A DNA stretch of 64,000 bases, taken from Polytrichum commune. Lineage: Eukaryota > Streptophyta > Polytrichopsida > Polytrichales > Polytrichaceae. Below are positions 10,904 through 44,580 of this stretch, piece after piece (the stretch's first letter is position 1; every line of letters begins with the position of its first letter). The translations under genes were made by a program, and so were the position numbers. Where the stretch lies: NCBI GenBank assembly GCA_950295325.1, contig OX485804.1:16988001-17052000 (forward strand), written 5' to 3'. A model generated the notes under the pieces. The model was not told the DNA's origin. It saw only the letters and a program-made list of their open reading frames with translations, and ran no database searches.

Positions 10904-10976
10904 TCCGTTGTAGTCTAGATGGTTAGGATACTCGGCTCTCACCCGAGCGACCCGGGTTCGAGTCCCGGCAACGGAA
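10904..10976 (+). tRNA. trnE-CUC: tRNA-Glu (anticodon CTC)
   Basis: A 73-nt gene that folds into a full cloverleaf. The acceptor arm TCCGTTG (10904-10910) pairs with CAACGGA (10969-10975), with discriminator A at 10976. The anticodon stem CTCGG/CCGAG encloses loop CTCTCAC with anticodon CTC at 10938-10940. The T arm CCGGG-TTCGAGT-CCCGG contains an intact B box (GGTTCGAGTCC), and the D-arm region TAGTCTAGATGG gives the A box. CCA is not encoded, as expected for a nuclear gene. It supplies glutamate to GAG codons and would be transcribed by RNA polymerase III from its internal promoter. There is no intron, and it looks functional. Confidence 0.94.
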
Positions 10977-11117: not shown

Positions 11118-11598
11118 TTGCTTCATTTTTGGGGACTTTGGATCCAAAATTTAACTCTTGACACATAGAATCGCTCCATTTTGGAGTTTCTTTGGTGTTG
11201 GACCCTAGTGCAAATCCACCCTTAGCACATCAAAAGAGCTCAAGCACACTAAAAGCAATAGGTTTCTAAAGAACAAGAGATTCGACCAGGTGTTCAAACT
11301 TTACAAACTACTCCACTCTTATTTAAATGTGACCACAATTGGGAGAACCTCAATTTTCCATTAGGAAATCAGCAAGAAGTGCACTTCTGATTACCATAAG
11401 TAACTTAAGGGGGTCTGATGATTGACGATGCTTCATGATAGATTTGTTGATGCACCACAAGTTTTGAGAGTACTCGTGTTGAGAGTTGGGTCTAGCTTTT
11501 TGGAGATTACAAATTCAGAATGATGTTCGTAGCACATCGTTGGAATTCAGATTGCATTGCATGTGATCAGCGGAGCAACTAGGCGACATTGATCGGCA
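11118..11598 (+). repeat. 5' flank of duplicated cysteine synthase segment, copy 1
   Basis: Matches 35815-37541 except that copy 2 has about 860 extra bases (36556-37415). The last 110 bases before the ATG are nearly identical in both copies, so the core promoter and leader were duplicated with the gene. A fragment of the more distal flank recurs at 56280-56400, so part of it is also a dispersed repeat. Confidence 0.8.
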
Positions 11599-14500
11599 AT
11601 GGCGACACCTTCGGGAGCAGCAGTTCTGGTGGAGAAACTATCCTTGCAAGATGGACCGAAACCCCGGCAGCTCAAGATTTGTCGCGGGGTGGAGGAGATG
11701 ATTGGCGGCACACCGATGGTGGAAGTGACAAGCATCCTCAAAGCTGATGGTGCGGTGGCAAGAGTGGTGGCCAAGATGGAGTGTCTTCAACCCGGCGGAT
11801 CTGTTAAAGACCGCATCGTACTCCCGTGAGATTTTGCATCGCCAGAACCCGTACTAGTCTCTTCTTCGTCCATTATGATGCCGATTTGTGCAATTACTGT
11901 ACTGCGACTGTCGTGATTAATTCCCTCTATGCTTTGTACATTTCTTATCATATTAGGATGAAAAGCTCACCAATTGCAGCATGTTACTAGTTGCCAAAGA
12001 CCACATCGTACTCCCGGGAGGTGCATCATTGTAACCCTCGTGTCTTCTTTGTCCGTTTTGCAATTTGTGCACTGCGATTGTGACCGTTCCCTCGGTGTTT
12101 CTTCCATTCCTGCTCTCTTTAGACTGAAAGTTCACCAATTGCAGCATGTTAGTAGATGTGAAATAGTACATCGCACTCCCCGGAGACGCATTGTTCAAAT
12201 TCTCGTGTCTTCTTCGTCTATTTTGGCTTTGGTCAGATTTGTAGGACTTGCGATTGTGGCCATTCCCTCAGTGTTTCTTAGCTTCCTGTGCTCTTTAGAC
12301 TGAAAGCTTCATCCATCCAATGCAGCATAGGACTAGATGTCAAAGACTCAAAGACGCATCGTACTCCCGTGAGAGATGTGGCATCACAAGCCCTCGCGTC
12401 TTGTTCGTCCAGTATGTGATTTTTGCAATTTCTAAACTGCGATTGTCGCAATTTCCCTCGATTCCTGCATTCCTTCTCTCTTTAGATGAAAACCTCACTA
12501 GATGCAGCATGACAGTAAATGTCAAAGGCCGCATCGTGCTCCCGTGAGATGCATCAGAAAACCTCGTCTTCTTTGTCCATTATGCGATTTGTGCAATTTT
12601 TGCAACTCAATTGTCGTAATTCCCTCGGCATTTCTTAAATTCCTGCTCTCTTTAAACTGAAAAAGGTCACAAAATGAAGCATCGCACTCCCGTGAGATGC
12701 ATCATTACAAACTCTCGTGTCGTCTTCGTTTATTATGCGATTTGTACAATTTGCAATTGTAGCAATTCCCTTGACATTTCTTACATTCCTGCTCTCTTTA
12801 CACTGAAAAAGTTGACCAAATGCAGCATGTTACTAGATGCCGAAGAAAAGGGGCTCATAACCCCGGGGAAGACAGTGCTGATTGAACCGACGAGTGGGAA
12901 TACGGGTGTGGCACTCGCCATGGTGGCCAGACGGAGAGGATACCGATGCATCCTCGTGATGCCGGAGTATTACTCCTTGGAACGCCGAATTCTCTTGCGT
13001 GCTTTAGGTGCTGAAGTTATTATAACAGGTTAGTTTTCGGTGTTTGAGCATTCTTCCTTACATATCGATCCATCACTTAACTCATTCAAGAGCCTTTCCT
13101 GTACTGAAGGGCCAGCCACACAAAGCTTGAGCTCAGCTTGAGCTTGCAAATGTGATGGGCCAAGTTGAAAGCATTTGGACCCTTACATGTGCCTAAAATT
13201 GTGGAGCTTAGATCCTTCTTATTTTGGATTTTGAATTGATTTTCAAGATCAAGCCCGAACTTGAATTTGTAGTCATCGGACTTGACATGACTACAAGCTC
13301 GACTTCGGGCTTAAACTTGAAAATCAATTTAAGAAAAAGCGCGGAACGACCTTGAGACAAAGCTCTATCGTCTTTGACACATGTAAGGGCCCAAATTCTT
13401 TTACCTTGGCCTACCGAATTTGCAAACTTGAGCTCAACTTGTGCGTGGCAAATCCATGACACTAAGATGGAGCACTGTATTCCAATTCAAGTTAGCCGAG
13501 TTGAAGGATTTTCCAACTTTTGTTTCTGACGATTGTGTGATTCGTCCTGCATTGGAAGAGCAGAGGGAGCGAAAGGACTCCCCGAGTTGTTCAGAGTATT
13601 GGACGAGTTGCTAAAAATCACACCGAACTCCCACATGCTCAGCCAGTTTCAAAATCCGGAAAACCCTAATGCTCATTTCCGCACTACTGGTGAGGCTCAT
13701 GACCAAACACTGGTTCCTAAAGCATTCATATCTTCAACTTGATATTGAAGATGAGACTATGATGCGAATATAAATTCCTTTCCGCAGGACCGGAAATATG
13801 GGAGGCGACTTCGGGGGAAGTCGACATCTTAGTGGCCGGCATTGGGACTGGAGGGACCGTCACCGGTACAGGCCGGTACCTGAAGAGCAGGAATGCCAAT
13901 GTGCAAGTCGTTGGGGTTGAGCCTGCTGAAAGTGCAATTCTGTCAGGTTTTGCTAATTTCTCCAAAACTTCCACACATTGATGGTCGGATGAAATCTCTA
14001 CATGGTAGGGGGTGCCAATGTGAGATAGGGTTGTTTCTAAAAATGGTGGCACTAGAATCAGAGAGAAAAACCAATCTTCTACTGGTCGTCGGTTGTTTTG
14101 ATCATGTGAACCACGAGGAGGAAGCTCCACTTGCAGGTGAACATGAACTGCTCATGTGGATAATTGTCTGGAACGAGTAGGGAAAATGATGACTCGCAAC
14201 TAGGTTAGAATTGGCAACACTTAGATGCTTAGAAATGGAAGGCGATTGTGTGCATGCATATAAGAGAGAAACCTTCTTCAAGAGGACTTCTCCTTTGCAC
14301 TAAGGTATAAGTGCCCATTGTGGACACTTTGAGCACTACTCCCTTACCTAACTAAGACAAATTATCCAATGTTTTGTGTGGATTACCAATTATGTTATGA
14401 GCACAATAACATTAAGATCACATGAATCAAACCATACCTTACTTCTTGAGAGATGTTCAAGTCACAAACCTCATTTGACCCTTCCTAGCTATACGGGCCC

Positions 14501-16387
14501 CCCAAAAAATGGACAGTGTTTGTTGACATTTTGTCTCCTTCAACCACTGAACTGTGTTATTAGACCTTAGAATAACACAGTCAATATTCATGAAGTACGT
14601 ACAGTAATCTACCGCTTAAGTGCGCACCCATTCAAGTAGGCATCCCAGTTAAGTGCGCATTTTTTTCGACAAAACTCATGGTTCATATTTTATTGTTTGA
14701 ACATGTCATGTAGAGTCATTTGTCACGAATGCTTGAATTTTTTACACTCAACATTCAATGTCAGTTTGTTAACGTTTTACTTAAACGTCTCAAACGATCG
14801 TCGCAGTTCATCATACATCTATCCAACTTCCGTTTGAGCATCGGAGTAAAGCAATTGGTTGTTGATGTCGAGGACAATGATGTGTAGGGCTTCAAAACCC
14901 TTGAAGTCAGTAGCACTTTCAGATTCAACAAATGTCTAGATAGGCTTGATTTCGTCATCGATAGGTGGTTCTTCTTCAATTTGAATTGTTTCCAGAAATT
15001 CTTCAACGTCCTCCAGCATAACAACACAATATTCTTTGTTGTTTGCATCATCGATATCTAACAAACTGCTCATTTCTTTTGGTTCGATGGAGATCTACAA
15101 AGTACGCACCTGCCAACTAAGTGCGCACCAATGGCTTTGGTTCAAAGTGCGTACTTAAGCGGGAGATTACTGTAGTTGCCCACTTTGAGGGGAAAATAGG
15201 TGTCAGAATTGGGGCCACTGATAGAATTGAGTGCTTCTACCTTATTGCAATCACAAGTTTTCACTTGAGCCATGTGACTGAGGAGTACTTGACTTTTGTC
15301 ATGACTTGGATGCCTTGGCTTTTTCTTTTTCTTTTCACTATATCTTTTTGGCATGGGAGAGGGCAATGTGCATTCTCTGGTTTCATTCTATAGATTCTTG
15401 TGGTTCATTGTTCTTCATTCCATGGCTGCTAACCATCATCACATGGATGCTTGTGCAGGAGGCCAGCCAGGAAAACATAGCATACAAGGCATGGGCGCTG
15501 GATTTATTCCTGACGTTTTAGATGTGAAGATACTGGATAGGGTGATCGCAGTGCACAGTGATGAGGCAATGGAGATGTCAAGACGACTGCAGACTGAAGA
15601 TGGCCTCCTTGTTGGCATGTCCTCTGGCGCCGCATTTGCTGCTGCCCTCAAGGTATGGAAGTTGAGCTAATGCTTCTTTCTGAGTACTACACCTCTCCAA
15701 ACCCATCTCTGATTAGAAGGAATCTGCTTCAAGAATCAGATTTTGCATCTCAGTTGCTTGAACTCAAAAGATAGAAACAGTGAACCTCTTTCTTTCAACC
15801 TAACCCTGAAGATAAAATTTGAGCTCATGGTGTTTCTGTGAGTACTACACCTATCCAAATTCATCTATGATTAGAATTTGCTTCAAGGAATTAGTTTCTG
15901 CATCTCAGTTGCTTACAGTCAGAAAACCGTGCAATCAAGGTGAGATGTTACATACTGCCAACCTCTTTCTTCCAGCCTAATATTCCTGTTCAAAATGAAT
16001 ACGTTGAATTCTCCTTGAAAAACAGTTTGACTCTTTGTAAACGCATGGTAGAAGTATGTCGAGAACGCTTAAGTTCGACATCGTTAGATTTTGCAGGTCT
16101 TGTGGATTTCTTACTCCTCAGAACAAACAGGTTGAGCTTCGTACTGCATAGTTTTAAGTAGCACCAAATTTTCTGACCATGGGAATTGCATTCCATGTCC
16201 TTCATGTGCTGTCTACTTGCAACTAAGAGTTTTTCCTGACTGGCTATTTGGACAGATGGCAAAGGAGCCAGCAAATGCAGGTAAACTCATCGTGGTGGTG
16301 TTTCCAAGCGCAGCAGAGCGTTATCTCAGTACAGCTCTTTTTGATTCTCTGAAAAAAGAATGCGAGACTATGAGTACCTACGAATAA
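11599..16387 (+). CDS. OASTL: O-acetylserine (thiol) lyase / cysteine synthase, copy 1 (six exons)
   Basis: A PLP enzyme of the beta-substituting family, which makes cysteine from O-acetylserine and sulfide. Exons are 11599-11825, 12826-13028, 13561-13689, 13788-13946, 15459-15652 and 16256-16387. Phases agree throughout and give 347 codons. Visible motifs are the PLP lysine in GGSVKDRI (K70), TSGNTG (98-103), GTGGT (206-210) and SSGAA near 294. The ends of the protein match family length. The first 25 residues are short and not targeting-like, so it is probably cytosolic. Oddities: GGSVKDR where plant enzymes usually have SSVKDR; about two residues missing at the exon 2/3 joint; and intron 1 made of repeats. 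Beta-cyanoalanine or S-sulfocysteine synthase activity cannot be excluded. The exon 1 donor was chosen as CTCCC|GTGAG because it preserves family spacing. Confidence 0.9.
11826..12825 (+). repeat. Intron 1 tandem array with mini-exon-like cassettes (5 units), copy 1
   Basis: The intron consists of units of about 150-190 bp. Each unit starts with a GTGAG-like intron start and ends with ctctttaRactgaaa and a gcag acceptor, then carries a cassette. Cassettes are 11980-12015, 12145-12180, 12326-12368, 12508-12543 and 12680-12691, of 36, 36, 43, 36 and 12 nt. Each joins the first 14 nt of exon 2 to the last 22 nt of exon 1. The first two have lost the donor GT, the second has a stop, and the third is out of frame. 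The last two have AG, GTGAG and an open frame. Confidence 0.88.
13134..13441. repeat. Long foldback in intron 2, copy 1
   Basis: Arms 13134-13191 and 13378-13441 are inverted copies sharing ccttacatgtg and gagcttgcaaa-type ends. The inside continues as a second palindrome (ttgattttcaag / cttgaaaatcaa). The whole 308 bp can therefore fold into one imperfect hairpin. Its counterpart in copy 2 is at about 39590-39892, with the outer right arm shortened. Confidence 0.75.
14602..15172 (-). mobile_element. Pogo-type (Tc1/mariner) deletion derivative inserted in intron 4 of copy 1
   Basis: The ends are inverted repeats beginning CAGTAATCT (14602) and finishing AGATTACTG (15172), with TA on both sides. 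Copy 2 has the empty site with a single TA (aagtacgtagtt near 41030). Sub-terminal AAGTGCGCA-like motifs are repeated at both ends and probably bind transposase. On the minus strand, 15060-14760 shows an acidic protein remnant ([17 protein letters not shown]) with several stops, consistent with the C-terminal tail of a CENP-B/pogo-like transposase. It is 571 bp and non-autonomous. Confidence 0.88.
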
Positions 16388-17271
16388 AACTAGGTGACTC
16401 GGCATGAAACATCCACAAACCACACATATAACCGGGCGATGAAAATACAGATGTATACATAATATATATAAAACACTAGCTGTTGATAATTGTAATGGTT
16501 GTTACTGCAGGGCCAAGAGGCTCTTGTAAAACTACGTTAATGACTAGCTCCTGAGTCATAGTGGTGATCCAAGCCCCAAATTGGTGCAATTGATGAAGAT
16601 ATCACAATTGTATCGTAGACCTAGGCTGCGAGGTCATGTCTGAAATGTGGATACAAATTATCAGGGTTTGTAAAAAACATTCCATTCTTGAAATTTCTGT
16701 CACCTCTTACAACCAGATGAAAATGCACATTTTTCATGAACATAATTTACACTTCCATGCATCTCCTGCAAAAAGCAAACAGCTAATATTTTGCTTCACT
16801 CACTACTGTACGTGCCTCTGAGGTGGAACATTTTGGTTGGATCGCATGAAATTCAGTACTTCCAGTAAACATCATATACTAATAGCTTACGCGAATCAAA
16901 TTCCAGGCTCTGGTCAAATACCATACTAATTGTTGAGTCTCATCTACATTATCCCAACTTCTTGAGGTCATTTTGTCTGGACCAGGTATACATAATTTCT
17001 CAAATACCTCCAATTGCGTGTGCTTGTTCAACATATAAGGTAATCTTCTGAGAAACACTCAATTTTCATGTTCACCAACTAGGACTTCTGTGTGATAGGT
17101 TATACCATAGATAATTTTTAGCGTTTTCTATCTCTGGTGCAGAATGATGATGTGGGCCACAAGCATTCACCAGCGGTCGGGAATTGCAGACAAAAATATC
17201 TGAAACAAACAGGAGCAGCATCTCTGCTTCAGCACACATCCACATGAATATTGTGCCGCCCCAAAATACTA

Positions 17272-17488
17272 CACTGTTTATGGTATATAGTGTCACTTAC
17301 TCTTTGGAATTACGCAATGCAATAACTTCGTATTTAGGAACCCAATTCTTACTTTCAAAAGTTGAATAGGTTGTTCAGACATTATAGAACATAAAAGACT
17401 TTTTCTTGGTGAAATATGAAATTCTCAGTATTATTTATAGCACTGCGTAAATCTGAATAGTAAGTGACACTAAATACCATGACCAGTG
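17272..17488. mobile_element. TA-flanked MITE, family 1 (copy d), downstream of OASTL copy 1
   Basis: CACTGTTTATGG at the left, inverted form ending CCAGTG at the right, TA on both sides, with the usual tagtgtcacttact inside. The same insertion is at 43121-43320 in copy 2, so it was there before the segment duplicated. Confidence 0.78.
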
Positions 17489-17563
17489 TAGTACACATCT
17501 TTTATGACTACTAAGCTTAGATGGCCCTGCACTCTCTTACAATCATGAGTAACTCACCAGGTA

Positions 17564-35814: not shown

Positions 35815-37541
35815 ACTTGGACCCTAGTGTAAATTCTTTAAATCCGAAATTTTGCTCTTGACCCATAGAATCACTCTATTTTGGAGTTTCTTTGGCCTTG
35901 GACCCTGGTGGAAACCATCCTTAGCACATCAAACCAGGTCAAATACATCAAAAACAATATGTTTCTAATAGGCTTGTCTACCTCAAGCAAGTGATGGACA
36001 GATAACCAACGAGAGAAGAGTGGACAATGAGCTGTGGGAACAGTTTGTCATCCACCGACTCGAGTTGTTTATTGGACATAATTTTTATCAACTCATGAAC
36101 ATAATCTAACGGTTATATATGATATCTCATCACCATAGATAATTTTTTCTGTGACGAGTCATGATAAACCTTCTACTCTTGAATGAGCAATTGGTCATGG
36201 GAGTAAATATAGCACACTTCCTTGTCAATGACTCCATAATGTGCAATTTTTGCCCTTTAAGGTAATATGCAATTGTTATTTGTTTTTTTTCTTTCTTTCA
36301 TGAAACCCCTATATTTGATTAATGTGTGGTTGGATGAGGACCAAAGAACAAACTATCACGTGTTCAAAAGAGATTCGACCAGATGTTCAAACTTTAAAAA
36401 CCACTCCACTCTCAATTGTGAACACAATTGGGAGAACCTCAATATTCAATTAGGAAATCAACAAAACGTGCAATTCTGATAACCATAACTAAATTAAGGG
36501 AGGTTTGATGTTTGATGATGCTTCATGGTAGATTTGTTAATGCACCATGAGTTTTGTTGTGTAAATGTAATTGGTAAAAGTTGGAGAACGTGAAAAGCAC
36601 ACCGAATAACACCCATATACTTACCTTATTCGGTGCATAGTGGATTTGGTTTGACTTGGCCGGCACATGCCAAAGTGGATACTGCGAAAAGCAAATAAGT
36701 CAATGTCAACCTAGCTACGCCCCAATTCACATGGGGTCCCAAATTCCAAGTCCAAGTCCCAAGTCCCAAGTCCCACTCATATCAGCAATAACATGTCTTG
36801 AACATGGAGAACTCACTGCTAAGTTAGTTACAAATGAACTAGGTTGAGTTTGAGAAAGAACCGGTCCAAGTTCAAGACTTCGAAAAAAAATCGATCATTT
36901 TAGAGGAATCTATGGAACATATCTCCAATTAGAAAACCGAAAGATCATAACATGTAACCAATTGGACTTGGAAACACTACAATTTTGATTGATTGTGTCC
37001 AAAAATCTCCCCGGACATTCGTCAACAACTCCCGACATGGAGGAAAACAATATGTACGTTTGACAAATTTCATTTAATGTTCAACTTTGAATCCAAAGTG
37101 TCACATGACGTTCTCAAAAACAAAAATGAATGTCAATTGATATATCTACATTTTCTTCTACAACGCACCTCAATGTCACATGCCTAGTAGTATGTGTCAT
37201 TTCAATTTCTAATGTGTAATTCACATGGTATTTTCCTTCAAATTTGAAAATGTGCATGTCAATTGACATGCATTTCTTGTGTGTGCAAGTTTTTGCGTGT
37301 CCAAATGTCAAAAATACACGCTCGATGCAAAGCTTGAACCTCAAGAAACCATCAAAGTACACATTATATCCATTACAGTAAAAAAATGATTTTATTATAA
37401 AAACACTGTTGGCACTTATCTCTGAGAGCTGGGTCTAGCTTTCTGGAGATTACAAATTCAGAATGATGTTCGTAGCACATCGTTGGAATTCAGATTGCAT
37501 TGCATGTGATCAGCGGAGCAACTAGGCGACATCGATCGGCA
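35815..37541 (+). repeat. 5' flank of duplicated cysteine synthase segment, copy 2
   Basis: Corresponds to 11118-11598 but holds about 860 extra bases (roughly 36556-37415). Inside these are a caccgaataa / ttattcggtg inverted pair (36599-36638) and a short aagtccc tandem run (36746-36772). The extra block begins only about 120 bp before the ATG, so distal promoter sequence differs between the two genes. Confidence 0.75.
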
Positions 37542-40500
37542 ATGGCGACACCTTCGGGAGCAGCAGTTCTGGTGGAGAAACTATCCTTGCAAGATGGACC
37601 GAAACCGCGGCAGAAGATATGTCGCGGTGTGGAGGAGATGATTGGCGGAACACCGATGGTGGAAGTGACAAACATCCTCAAAGCTGATGGTGCGGTGGCA
37701 AGAGTGGTGGCCAAGATGGAGTGTCTCCAACCCGGCGGATCGGTTAAAGACCGCATCGTACTCCCGTGAGATTTTGCATCGCCAGAACCCCTACCAGTCT
37801 CTTCTTCGTCCATTATGATGCGATTTGTGCAATTACTGTACTGCGACTGTCATGATTCCTTCCCTCCATGCTTTGTACATTTCTTATCATATTAGGCTGA
37901 AAATCTCACCAATTGCAGCATGTTACTAGTTGCCAAAGACCACATCGTACTCCCGGGAGGTGCATCATTGTAACCCTCGTGTCTTCTTTAATTTGTCCGC
38001 TTTGCAATTTGTGCAAATTTTGGACACTGCGATTGTGGCCGTTCCCTTGGTGTTTCTTACATTCCTGCTCTCTTTAGACTGAAAGTTCACCAATTGCAGC
38101 ATGTTAGTAGATGTAAAATACTACATCGCACTCCCTGGAGACGCATTGTTCAAATTCTCGTGTCTCCTTCGTCTATTTTGGCTTTGGTCAGATTTGTAGG
38201 ACTTGCGATTGTGGCCATTCCCTCAGTGTTTCTTAGCTTCCTGTGCTCTTTAGACTGAAAGCTTCATCCATCCAATGCAGCATGTGACTAGATGTCAAAG
38301 ACTCAAAGACGCATCGTACTCCCGTGAGAGATGTGGCATCACAAAATCTCATGACTATTTCGTCCATTTTGTGATTTGTAGCCATTCCCTCCGCGCTTCT
38401 TGCATTCCTGCTCTCTTTAGACTGAAAGTTTCACCAAATGCAGCATGTTACTAGATGTTGAATACCACATCGTATTACCCTGAGATGCATCGTTGCGATT
38501 TCTCGTGTCCTCTTCGTCCGCTTTGCAATTTGTGCAATTTTTCGACACTGCGATACGTTTCTTACATTTGTCTTCCCTTTAGGAAAGCTCACCAAATGCA
38601 GCATATTATTAGATATCAAAGATTGCATAGTACTCGCGTGAGATGTTGCATCCCAAACCCTCGTGTCTTCTTCGTTGATTTCTCAATTTGTGCAGATTTT
38701 TGACACTGCGATTGTCGCAATTCTCTCGGTGTTTCTTGCATCTCTGCTATTTAGCCTGAAAGCCTCGTCCATCTAATGCAGCATGTTATAAGATGTCAAA
38801 GACCGCATCGTACTCCTGTGAGATGTGGCATCACAAGCCCTCGCGTCTTGTTCGTCCAGTATGTGATTTGTGCAATTTCTAAACTGCGATTGTCGCAATT
38901 TCCCTCGATTCCTGCATTCCTTCTCTCTTTAGATTAAAACCTCACTAGATGCAGCATGACAGTAATTGTCAAAGGCCGCATTGTACTCCCGTGAGATGCA
39001 TCAGAAAACCTCGTCTTCTTTGTCCATTATGCGATTTGTGCAATTTTTGCAACTCAATTGTCGTAATTCCCTCGGCATTTCTTAAATTCCTCCTCTCTTT
39101 AAACTGAAAAAGGTCACAAAATGAAGCATCGCACTCCCGTGAGATGCATCATTACAATCTCTCGTGTCGTCTTCGTTTATTATGCGATTTGTGCAATTTT
39201 TGGACACTGCAATTGTAGCAATTCCCTTGACATTTCTTACATTCCTGCTCTCTTTACACTGAAAAAGTTGACCAAATGCAGCATGTTACTAGATGCCGAA
39301 GAAAAGGGGCTCATAACCCCGGGGAAGTCAGTGCTGATTGAACCGACGAGTGGGAATACGGGTGTGGCACTCGCCATGGTGGCCAGACGGAGAGGATACC
39401 GATGCATCCTCGTGATGCCGGAGTCTTTCTCCTTGGAACGCCGAATTCTCTTGCGTGCTTTAGGTGCTGAAGTTATTATAACAGGTTAGTTTTCGGTGTT
39501 TGAGCATTCTTCCTTACATATCGAACCATCACTTAACTCACTCAAGAGCCTTTCCTGTACTGAAGGGCCAGCCACACAAAGCTTGAGCTCAGCTTGAGCT
39601 TGCAAATGTGATGGGCCAAGTTGAAAGCATTTGGACCCTAACATGTGCCTAAATATGTGGAGCTTCGTTCCTTCTTATTTTGGATTTTGGATTTTGAATC
39701 GATTCCCAAGATCAAGCCGGAACTTGAACTTGTAGTCATCGGACTTGACTTGACTACAAGCTCAAGTTCGGGCTTAAACTTGAAAATCAATTTAAGAAAC
39801 AGCGCGGAACGACCTTGAGACAAAGCTCTATCGTCTTTGACACATGTAAGGGCCCAAATTCTTTTACCTTGACCTACCGAATTTGCAAGCTTGATGGAGC
39901 AGTGTTTTCCAATTCAAGTTAGCCGAGTTGAAGGATTTTCCAACTTTTGTTTTTGACGATTGTGTGATTCGTTCTGCATTGGAAGAGCAGAGGGAAAGAA
40001 AGGAATCCCCGAGGTGTTCAGAGTGTTGGACGAGTTGCTAAAAAACACGCCGAATTCCCACATGCTCGCCCAGTTTCAAAATCCGGAAAACCCTAATGCT
40101 CATTTCCGCACTACTGGTGAGTCACATGTCCAAACACTGGTTCCTAAAGCATTCATATCTTCAACTTGATATTGAAGATGAGACAATGATGCGAATATAA
40201 ATTCCTTCTCGCAGGACCGGAAATATGGGAGGCGACTTCGGGGGAAGTCGACATCTTAGTGGCCGGCATTGGGACTGGAGGGACCGTCACCGGTACAGGC
40301 CGGTACCTGAAGAGCAGGAATGCCAATGTGCAAGTCGTTGGGGTTGAGCCTGCTGAAAGTGCAATTCTGTCAGGTTTTGCTAAATTCTCCAAAACTTTCA
40401 CAAATTCATGGTCGCATGAAATCTCTACATGGTAGGGGGTGCCAATGTGAGATAGGGTTGTTTCTAAAAATGGTGGCACTAGAATCAGAGAGAAAAAGAA

Positions 40501-42235
40501 TCTTCTACTTATCGTCGGTTGTTTTGATCATGTGAACCACGAGGAGGAAGCTCCACTTGCAGGTGAACCTGAACTGCTCATGTGGATAATTGTCTGGAAC
40601 GAGTAGGGAAAATGATGACTCGCAACTAGGTTAGAATTGGCAACAGTTAGATGCTTAGAAATGGAAGGCGATTGTGTGCATGCATATAAGAGAGAAATCT
40701 TCTTCAAGAGGACTTCTCCTTTGCACTAAGGTATAAGTGCTCATTGTGGACACTTTGAGCACTACTCCCTTACATAACCAAGACAAATTATCCAATGTTT
40801 TGTGTGGATTACCAATTATGTTATGAGCACAACAACATTACGATCACATGAATCAGACCATACCTTATTTTTATAGAGATGTTCAAGTCACAGACCTTAT
40901 TTGACCCTTCCTAGCTACATAGGCCCCCCAAAAAATGGACAGTGTTTGTTGACATTTTGTCTCCTTCAACCAATGAGCTGTGTAATTAGTCCTTAAAATA
41001 ACACAATTAATGTTTAAGTTTAAGTACGTAGTTCCCCACTTTGGGGCGGAAATAGGTGTCAGAATTGGGGCCACTGATGGAATTGAGCGCTTCTACCTTA
41101 GTGCAATCACAAGTTTTCACTTGAGCCATGTCACTGAGGAGTACTTGACTTTTGTCAGGACGTGGATGCCTTGGCTTTTTCTTTTTCTTTTCGCTATATC
41201 TTTTTGGCATGGGAGAGGGCAATGTGAATTCTCTGGTTCCATTCTATAGCTTCTTGTGGTTCATTGTTCTTCATTCCATGGCTACTAATCATCATCACAT
41301 GGGTGCTTGTGTAGGAGGCAAGCCAGGAAAACATAGCATACAAGGCATAGGCTCTGGATTTATTCCTGAAGCTTTAGATGTGAAGATACTGGATAGGGTG
41401 ATCACGGTGCACAGTGATGAGGCAATGGAGATGTCAAGACGACTGCAGACCGAAGATGGCCTCCTTGTTGGCATCTCATCTGGCGCCGCATTTGCTGCTG
41501 CCCTCAAGGTATGGCTAATGCTTTTTTCTGAGTACTACACCTCTCCAAACCCATCTCTGATTAGAAGGAATCTGCTTCAAGAATCAGATTCTGCATCTCA
41601 GTTGCTTGAACTCAAAAGATAGAAACAGTGAACCTCTTTCTTTCAACCTAACCCTGAAGATAAAATTTGAGCTCATGGTGTTTCTGTGAGTACTACACCT
41701 CTCCAAATTCATCTATGATTAGAATTTGCTTCAACGAATCAGTATCTGTATCTGAGTTGCTCTCAGTCAGAAAATGGTGCAATCAAGGTGAGATGTTACA
41801 TACAGCCAACCTCTTTCTTCCAGCCTAATATTCCTGTTCAAAAGAAATACATTGAATTCTCCTTGAAAAACAGCTTGACTCTTTGTAAACGCATGGTAGA
41901 AGTATGTCGAGAACGTTTAAGTTCCACATCATTAGATTTTGCAGGTCTTGTGGATTTCTTACTCCTCAGAACAAGCAGGTTGAGCTTCGTACTGCATAGT
42001 TTTAAGTAGCACCAAATTTTCTGACCATGGGAATTGCATTTCATGTCCTTCATGTGCTGTCTACTTGCAACTAAGAGTTTTTCCTGACTGGCTATTTGGA
42101 CAGATGGCAAAGGAGCCAGCAAATGCAGGTAAACTCATCGTGGTGGTGTTTCCAAGCGCAGCAGAGCGTTATCTCAGTACAGCTCTTTTTGATTCTCTGA
42201 AAAAGGAATGCGAGACCATGAGTACCTACCAATAA
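37542..42235 (+). CDS. OASTL: O-acetylserine (thiol) lyase / cysteine synthase, copy 2 (six exons)
   Basis: Paralogue of the gene at 11599, same strand, same exon plan. Exons are 37542-37765, 39282-39484, 39988-40116, 40215-40373, 41315-41508 and 42104-42235, giving 346 codons. Lengths match copy 1 exactly except exon 1, which is one codon shorter (RQKICRG versus RQLKICRG). The PLP lysine (K69), TSGNTG, GTGGT and SSGAA motifs are all kept. Differences are scattered single residues, for example EGKKGIPEV for [20 protein letters not shown] for [11 protein letters not shown], and last residue Q for E. No stop or shift is seen, so both copies could be active. Intron 1 is longer by three repeat units. 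Intron 4 lacks the pogo derivative. The substrate could be that of a beta-cyanoalanine synthase, as for copy 1. Confidence 0.9.
37766..39281 (+). repeat. Intron 1 tandem array with mini-exon-like cassettes (8 units), copy 2
   Basis: Same architecture as in copy 1. Cassettes are 37919-37954, 38100-38135, 38281-38323, 38444-38479, 38602-38637, 38782-38817, 38955-38990 and 39127-39138. All are 36 nt except the third (43) and last (12). Those at 38602, 38955 and 39127 retain AG, GTGAG and an open frame. The one at 38782 has good splice sites but an in-frame TAA. The first, second and fourth have lost the donor GT. Copy 1 looks like this array after loss of three units, by exchange between unit 3 and unit 6. 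Confidence 0.88.
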
Positions 42236-43120
42236 AACTAGGTGACTCGGCATGAAACATCCACAAACCACACATATAACCAGGTGATGAAAATACAGAT
42301 GTATACATAATATATATAAAACACTAGCTGTTGATAACTGTAATGGTTGTTACTGCAAGGCCAAGAGGCTCTTGTAGAACTACGTTAATGACTAGCTCCT
42401 GAGTTATAGTGGTGATCCAAGCCCCAAATTGGTGCAATTGATGAAGATATCACAATTGTATCGTAGACCTAGGCTGTGAGGTCATGTCTAAAATGTGGAT
42501 ACAAATTATCAGGGTTTGTAAAAAACATTCCACTCTTGAAATTTCTGTCACCTCTTACAACCAGATGAAAATGCACATTTTTCATGAACATAATTTACAC
42601 TTCCATGCATCTCCTGCAAAAAGCAAACAGCTAATATTTTGCTTCACTCACTACTGTACGTGCCTCTGAGGTGGAACATTTTGGTTGGATCGCATGAAAT
42701 TCAGTACTTCCAGTAAACATCATATACTAATAGCTTACGAGAATCAAAATTCCAGGCTCTGGTCAAATACCATACTAATTGTTGAGTCTCATCTACATTA
42801 TCCCGACTTCTTGAGGTCATTTTGTCTGGACCAGGTATACATAATTTCTCAAATGCCTCCAATTGCGTGTGCTTGTTCAACATATAAGGTAATCTTCTGA
42901 GAAACACTCAATTTTCATGTTCACCAACTAGGACTTCTGTGTGATAGGTTATACCATAGATAGATTTCAACGTTTTCTATCTCTGGTGCAGAATGATGAT
43001 GTGGGCCACAAGCATTCACCAGCGGTCGGGAATTGCAGACAAAAATATCTGAAACAAACAGGAGCAGCATCTCTGCTTCAGCACACATCCACATGAATAT
43101 TGTGCCGCCCCAAAATACTA

Positions 43121-43320
43121 CACTGTTTATGGTATATAGTGTCACTTACTCTTTGGAATTAGGCAATGCAATAACTTGGTATTTAGAGTCAATTTTTTCC
43201 TTTCAAAAGTTGAATAGGTTGTTCAGACATTATAGAACATAAAAGGCTTTGCTTGGTAAAATATGGAATTCTCACTGTGTAAATTTGAATAGTAAGTGAC
43301 ACTGAATACCATAACCCATG
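43121..43320. mobile_element. TA-flanked MITE, family 1 (copy e), downstream of OASTL copy 2
   Basis: Orthologous to the insertion at 17272-17488, with an internal deletion of about 20 bp. TA flanks and the tagtgtcacttactc motif are kept. Confidence 0.75.
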
Positions 43321-43394
43321 TAGTACACATCTTTTATGACTACTAAGCTTAGATGGCCCTGCACTCGTTTACAATCGTGAGTAACTCATTACGT

Positions 43395-44195: not shown

Positions 44196-44580
44196 CACAT
44201 TCTTCCAACTGGAATTGCCTAATCCAACTTCATTCATCATCCATTATTCTAGTTGGAACTAGTTAATTCCAACTTCATTCATCCATCCATTCTCCTAGTT
44301 GGAATTGTCTAATTCCAACTTGATTCATCTATCTATTGAGAGTTGTCTAGCTCCAATGAATAGGATCCAACTTTCACTTTCTAAATTTGGAGTGGCCTAC
44401 CTCCAATGCAACTCATCCAGAGTTGTCTAACTATCGTGCACATGTTCTCAATATGGAATGGTCTAATCCTAGTGCACTAAATATGGAGTTGTTTAACTCC
44501 AGTGCACATATTATCAATTTGGAGTTGTCTAACTCCAGTCCATCCATCTTCAACTTGGAGTTGATCCCATCATCCTTTAC
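44196..44580. repeat. Array of short palindromes (ggagttgtctaactcc family)
   Basis: At least eight variants of a short inverted repeat of the form TTGGA(A/G)TTGTCTAA(C/T)TCCAA follow one another. They are spaced about 40-65 bp apart and separated by ttcattcatcc-like or agtgcac-like text. Examples are near 44315, 44340, 44412, 44455, 44492 and 44522. No coding content is recognised. Confidence 0.7.

Follow-up and report, generated by a model that had tools for sequence, protein, structure and literature searches.

The first intron of two cysteine synthase genes of Polytrichum commune is made up of head-to-tail copies of one intron, and successive copies are separated by short cassettes that reproduce the edges of the two flanking exons. 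The most probable interpretation is that this intron is a relic tandem array which is spliced as one long intron and whose cassettes drift as intron sequence. The window analyzed here, that is, the whole stretch of 64,000 nucleotides, carries two intact cysteine synthase genes on its forward strand, 26 kb apart, at 11599-16387 (gene 1) and 37542-42235 (gene 2). On the basis of spliced translation, complemented by homology for its first exon, gene 1 consists of exon 1 (11599-11825, ending in ...SVKDRIVLP), exon 2 (12826-13028) and exons 3 to 6 (13564-13689, 13788-13946, 15459-15652 and 16256-16387). Its paralog gene 2, defined in the same way by spliced translation, consists of exon 1 (37542-37765) and exons 2 to 6 (39282-39484, 39991-40116, 40215-40373, 41315-41508 and 42104-42235). 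The first introns measure 1000 nt in gene 1 (11826-12825) and 1516 nt in gene 2 (37766-39281). In both genes, the direct junction of exon 1 to exon 2 gives full-length CysK-type proteins, of 346 and 345 residues respectively, which are 94% identical.

The gene 1 protein reaches 397.1 bits against the CysK model TIGR01139, whose curated equivalog cut-off is 350.95, and most of it can be aligned with structurally characterized plant cysteine synthases. Once spliced, each of the two genes encodes the motifs SVKDR, TSGNTG and GIGTGGT in a single open reading frame; we take them to correspond respectively to the PLP lysine, the loop and the phosphate site. By identity, the closest organism-named relatives among the best 120 of 7996 scored proteins belong to the moss genera Ceratodon (74%) and Sphagnum (up to 69%). 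The annotated sequence of one Ceratodon purpureus cysteine synthase (P0020, M758_12G181500) has the exon-2 methionine as its very first residue, which would be the case if exon 1 had been overlooked, perhaps owing to an unusual intron 1, or lost. The two genes of the window lie within a direct segmental duplication, with matching pieces between 11136-17556 and 35836-43388. A tRNA-Glu (CTC) gene is located directly upstream of gene 1 (10904-10976), and the detected similarity of the segments begins downstream of it. The possibility that the genes are pseudogenes was rejected, since the reading frames are intact in both and they diverge by a dN of 0.025 and a dS of 0.057.

A reading of the DNA made from the letters and their open reading frames (hereafter, the sequence-only reading) had described an array of repeated cassettes at 11826-12825. 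A repeat search, self-BLAST and probes for the exon edges recover the array at that place, together with a second, longer one at 37766-39281. The repeated intron is 120-154 nt long and is present in six copies in gene 1 (11826-11979, 12016-12144, 12181-12325, 12369-12507, 12544-12679 and 12692-12825) and nine in gene 2, with five and eight cassettes, respectively, between them. In a cassette, the opening 14 nt of exon 2 are joined directly to the closing 22 nt of exon 1. Eight families of direct repeats, with 3-6 copies each, recur at successive spacings of 146-191 nt, or of 318-365 nt where a unit is skipped, and self-BLAST matches within intron 1 of gene 1 have E-values down to 1e-88. A probe combining the exon-1 tail with the donor matches five times in intron 1 of gene 1 and eight times in that of gene 2, against means of 0.0 and 0.005 in 200 dinucleotide shuffles, and has no match on either strand of the remaining window. 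The reciprocal probe, which combines the acceptor with the exon-2 head, matches four and seven times (means of 0.04 and 0.055 in the same kind of shuffles); on both strands of the remaining window it has seven matches, namely the two true exon-2 starts and five weak 13-of-18 matches. Chance repeats were rejected because the probe matches are far above the shuffle means, none of which exceeds 0.055. A dispersed transposon was rejected as well: when the gene 1 region was compared with the window by BLAST (E up to 1e-8), the array was found only in the two introns, and the exon edges carried in the repeat also disfavor such an element. The copies lie head to tail and bear the exon edges of both sides at a constant junction, which is the pattern of a tandem intragenic duplication spanning an intron; the repeated duplication of an intron with its exon edges, already proposed in the sequence-only reading, is thereby supported by the alignment of the units, by the constancy of their junction and by the tree of the periods described below.

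The cassettes are heterogeneous in length and in the state of their splice signals. Nine of the 13 are 36 nt long and the other four were altered by indels: the 43-nt form is the homologous cassette 3 of both genes and the 12-nt form is the last cassette of both. In gene 1, cassette 1 (11980-12015, 36 nt) is open and preceded by AG, and its donor has been lost (GG, with a GT 5 nt further on); cassette 2 (12145-12180, 36 nt) also follows an AG, contains an in-frame stop and has lost its donor (CG); cassette 3 (12326-12368, 43 nt) shifts the frame, as does its homologue in gene 2, and keeps both splice dinucleotides; cassette 4 (12508-12543, 36 nt) is open over 12 residues and has both dinucleotides; cassette 5 (12680-12691), with its 12 nt, is 24 nt below the usual length and is open (PIAL), with a GAAG acceptor and a GT donor. 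The eight cassettes of gene 2, also on the forward strand, are located at 37919-37954, 38100-38135, 38281-38323, 38444-38479, 38602-38637, 38782-38817, 38955-38990 and 39127-39138. The earlier picture of units that end in gcag, with 36 nt as the normal cassette length and a GTGAG-like donor after the cassette, is accurate in part: among the five gene 1 units, the length applies to three (the others have 43 and 12 nt), the gcag to four (the fifth reads gaag) and the GT to three (all but cassettes 1 and 2). Its statement that 12508-12543 and 12680-12691 have both splice signals and an open frame was correct, and cassettes of 36 or 12 nt do have the phase of the true junction at both their ends. 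Considering both genes, the units retain intron signals, with AG in front of all 13 cassettes (GCAG in 11, GAAG in two) and GT after only eight (three of five in gene 1, five of eight in gene 2). A stop in the frame of entry is found in three, namely cassette 2 of gene 1 and cassettes 3 and 6 of gene 2. Five cassettes out of 13 combine AG, GT, a length divisible by three and the absence of stops: 4 and 5 of gene 1 and 5, 7 and 8 of gene 2.

Several scenarios may be considered for these cassettes. One possibility is that the open ones are real alternative micro-exons, in which case the inclusion of cassettes 4 and 5 in part of the gene 1 mRNA would give forms of 350, 358 and 362 residues, the additional ones being inserted directly after the PLP lysine segment. 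The five cassettes with AG, GT, phase and open frame are in line with this, and the local splice sequences of open cassettes resemble authentic ones; those of gene 1 cassettes 4 and 5 are much like the true signals, so the sequence by itself gives no reason for their skipping. The flanking introns in gene 1 are 129-154 nt long, and introns of that length on either side would suit intron definition. Furthermore, plain column identity makes the cassettes slightly more alike than the spacers: once the true exon edges are masked, the two cassette halves of gene 2 have mean identities of 0.752 and 0.772 (0.773 and 0.796 with these edges included), versus 0.721 in the spacers. Nevertheless, the cassettes do not change more slowly between the paralogs, where they differ at 7 of 163 sites compared with 19 of 834 (2.3%) in the array spacers (Fisher p = 0.17). 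Introns 2, 3 and 5 differ at 22/499, 6/98 and 22/595 sites, together 50/1192, and the comparison of the cassettes with them (p = 1.0) indicates that the cassettes evolve like other introns. Within the array, where the letters of shortened or lengthened cassettes that fell in wrong columns were masked, the changes per letter amount to 0.079 and 0.082 in the cassette halves and 0.088 in the spacers when the true exon edges are included; with these edges masked, the cassette halves reach 0.089 and 0.097 against the same 0.088, so that the rate is not lower in the cassettes. The changes in cassettes show no codon-position pattern either, with 15, 11 and 11 in the 12 columns of each position and third positions not favored. 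The cassettes have no detectable coding constraint in these small numbers, and coding constraint relative to the flanking intron, which would be the mark of micro-exons, was not found in them.

The known proteins point in the same direction. JGI protein P0001 is 90% identical and has the direct exon 1-exon 2 junction without any cassette; its contigs have at most 1641 nt, too short for introns like those of gene 1 (3748 nt in total), and it is probably the spliced transcript of a related moss. A query including cassette 4 of gene 1 (285 candidates scored) and another with a founder-type cassette (298 candidates scored) retrieved the same six proteins, none of them cassette-bearing, in searches that reach database proteins sharing words with the query. 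The lysine motif is present in 120 of 122 proteins, in 124 instances, and its distance to the following D/E-A-E is seven residues in 123 of them by script; the remaining instance, in P0061, has AAE and shows the seven-residue spacing by eye. P0122, which lacks the lysine motif, reads RIAHSMIQDAE and KIAYSMIQDAE without insertion. An insertion of 12 residues here would presumably disrupt the fold. The proposal of the sequence-only reading that the cassettes serve as functional alternative exons thus finds no support, given that they change no more slowly than their surroundings, lack a codon-position pattern and have both dinucleotides with an open frame in only five cases out of 13. We consider their being real micro-exons unlikely; the cassettes are probably skipped, and a function for them, judged from the sequence, seems unlikely in general.

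The cassettes that would disrupt the protein suggest another role, in which their inclusion (the 43-nt cassette 3 of both genes and cassette 6 of gene 2) would bring in a stop or a frameshift and send the mRNA to decay, tuning the level of the enzyme. These three cassettes do keep both splice dinucleotides. Yet, among the three cassettes with a stop, cassette 2 of gene 1 has lost its donor, the stops are not common to homologous cassettes of the two genes, as drift predicts, and cassette 3 itself differs at 2 of 43 sites between the paralogs. Such unproductive splicing appears very unlikely.

The acceptors and donors of the cassettes have had different fates. At the acceptor end TGnAG, the four specified letters underwent no change on the tree of the units, whereas the donor GT was lost at three different cassettes, or five of 13 when both genes are counted. 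Drift alone does not account for this asymmetry, which is a hint of constraint on the acceptors and not a proof, because the spacers too have 35 columns out of 114 that are identical in every row and the GAG that follows the donor GT is equally invariant. The invariant acceptors, together with the competent-looking cassettes 4 and 5, leave room for low-level use of cassettes. A bolder scenario would see in these acceptors the trace of a live splicing rheostat: open cassettes would occasionally be spliced in, lengthening the protein by 4 or 12 residues at a time immediately after the catalytic lysine, and unequal exchange would shift their copy number, so as to generate a ladder of enzyme forms, some of them inactive and perhaps dominant in the dimer. 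We find this quite unlikely.

The reading of intron 1 as a relic array that is skipped as a whole leads to a scenario for its history. The founding duplication would have copied a single ancestral intron of about 120-155 nt along with 22 nt from the end of exon 1 and 14 nt from the start of exon 2. Its joint would have formed where the exon ends are similar (TGTTAAAGA in exon 1, TGCCGAAGA in exon 2), giving a new internal cassette of 36 nt, in phase. These two sequences resemble each other and share their codon register, which would explain the preserved frame. Unequal exchange between copies may then have multiplied the resulting unit of about 150-190 nt, and the 12-nt cassette looks like the outcome of a 24-nt deletion between two GCAT copies. 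In the tree of the 15 periods, units of gene 1 pair with units of gene 2 (1-1, 2-2, 3-3, 4-7, 5-8 and 6-9, with supports of 0.958-1.000), a cross-gene pairing which shows that the array was already present before the duplication of the whole gene. Since the units of one array are only about 72% alike and the homologous spacers of the two genes differ by just 2.3%, the amplification is much older than the gene duplication. Period 4 of gene 1 is a hybrid: its first part, with a two-base insertion after the donor, corresponds to period 4 of gene 2 and the rest to period 7. This suggests that recombination between units 4 and 7, inside a stretch that they share, subsequently removed three units from gene 1, and places the loss in the intron copy that follows cassette 3 of gene 1 (12326-12368) on the forward strand. 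Alternatively, gene 2 could have gained the units, but its units 4-6 have diverged to about the same degree as the rest, which makes this less likely. In the present genes, exon 1 would be spliced directly to exon 2 and the array would act as one long intron.

The array might also have been kept for another reason, namely the multiplication of an element for intron-mediated enhancement, the exon scraps being incidental. GATYTG, the core of TTNGATYTG, occurs four times in intron 1 of gene 1 and six times in that of gene 2 (means of 0.49 and 0.77 in 500 single-base shuffles) and is absent from the sense strand of the seven other introns tested, and intron 1 of gene 1 is 227 nt from the ATG. In Arabidopsis, six or 11 copies of the motif were reported to make a non-stimulating intron stimulating (PMC6760150). 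The divergence between the paralogs is also lower in the array spacers (37766-39281 versus 11826-12825) than in introns 2, 3 and 5 (19/834 versus 50/1192, p = 0.024, uncorrected), which could be due to constraint, gene conversion or chance; a slower divergence of the spacers would fit an enhancing role. Nevertheless, the full TTNGATYTG is found in intron 1 of neither gene, a tandem array multiplies any sequence it contains, and gene 1 lost three units with its reading frame still intact. Moreover, GATYTG belongs to a motif known from Arabidopsis, and its activity in moss is putative. The maintenance of the array as an enhancer is, on these grounds, highly improbable.

Other parts of the two genes contain repeats of their own. 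An insertion of about 571 nt (14602-15172) lies within intron 4 of gene 1; it has terminal inverted repeats starting CAGTAATCT and TA on either side, and the corresponding empty site is found in gene 2, near 41030. The insertion resembles a non-autonomous element of the Tc1/mariner or pogo type. An imperfect inverted repeat in intron 2 of gene 1 (13115-13449; some 350 nt at about 69%) could form a long hairpin and also matches intron 2 of gene 2 (39571-39891) in reverse. An imperfect direct duplication of about 100 nt (81%) in intron 5 of gene 1, at 15659-15759 and 15816-15914, and also in gene 2 at 41514-41761, represents another short tandem copy in these genes. Finally, a cluster of overlapping tandem repeats of 30-46 nt at 44210-44563 is apparently unrelated to the array of intron 1.

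The mutational process at the origin of the array is already known. In a plant, a new intron has been documented to arise from a tandem duplication that crossed the border between an intron and an exon (PMC4974935), and in Drosophila the novel intron of Bap170 is flanked by an imperfect repeat (PMC2809761). As in the moss array, the duplication described in the plant spans intron and exon, carries splicing signals and alters the structure of the gene; it is, however, reported as a single duplication at the boundary of one intron and one exon that gave a detected new intron, whereas the moss units include both boundaries of the intron, reached six to nine copies and apparently form one long intron. 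The micro-exon genes of Schistosoma (PMC4350168) resemble the cassettes in their very small symmetrical exons, which could vary the protein by a few residues, but there such exons are described as expressed and as making up most of the coding region, while the moss cassettes, putative exons at most, show no coding constraint and sit in the gene of a housekeeping-type enzyme. Uniform exon-intron units were likewise multiplied in one gene in the 90-bp LRR exon arrays of Tetrahymena (PMC6564038), for which unequal crossing over was proposed, and in the LRR exons of brown algal ROCO genes, also of uniform size (PMC11378527). The units of both are described as carrying translated protein repeats, in contrast to the moss unit, which consists of an intron and a chimeric cassette formed from the edges of two exons. 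Stwintrons and introner-like elements (PMC8469720, PMC4457414) share with the moss the multiplication of intron sequence, but they are presented as nested or located at different sites and the moss copies lie head to tail at one site. The sequence-only reading knew of no described case, and in the open-licence literature we likewise found no multi-copy intron array with exon-edge cassettes.

The moss case is thus set apart by a unit comprising a whole intron and both exon edges, by cassettes without coding constraint and by a gene that still encodes a plain enzyme; the novelty lies in its multi-copy form with exon-edge cassettes. If the cassettes prove silent, the array would be a neat but ordinary example of intron growth. 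It nonetheless offers a readable intermediate in the evolution of gene structure, in which a whole intron was repeatedly duplicated with its exon edges in a gene that stayed intact and whose paralogs now stand at six and nine copies. It also raises a testable question, namely what makes the spliceosome pick the outermost pair among many near-copies of its splice sites.
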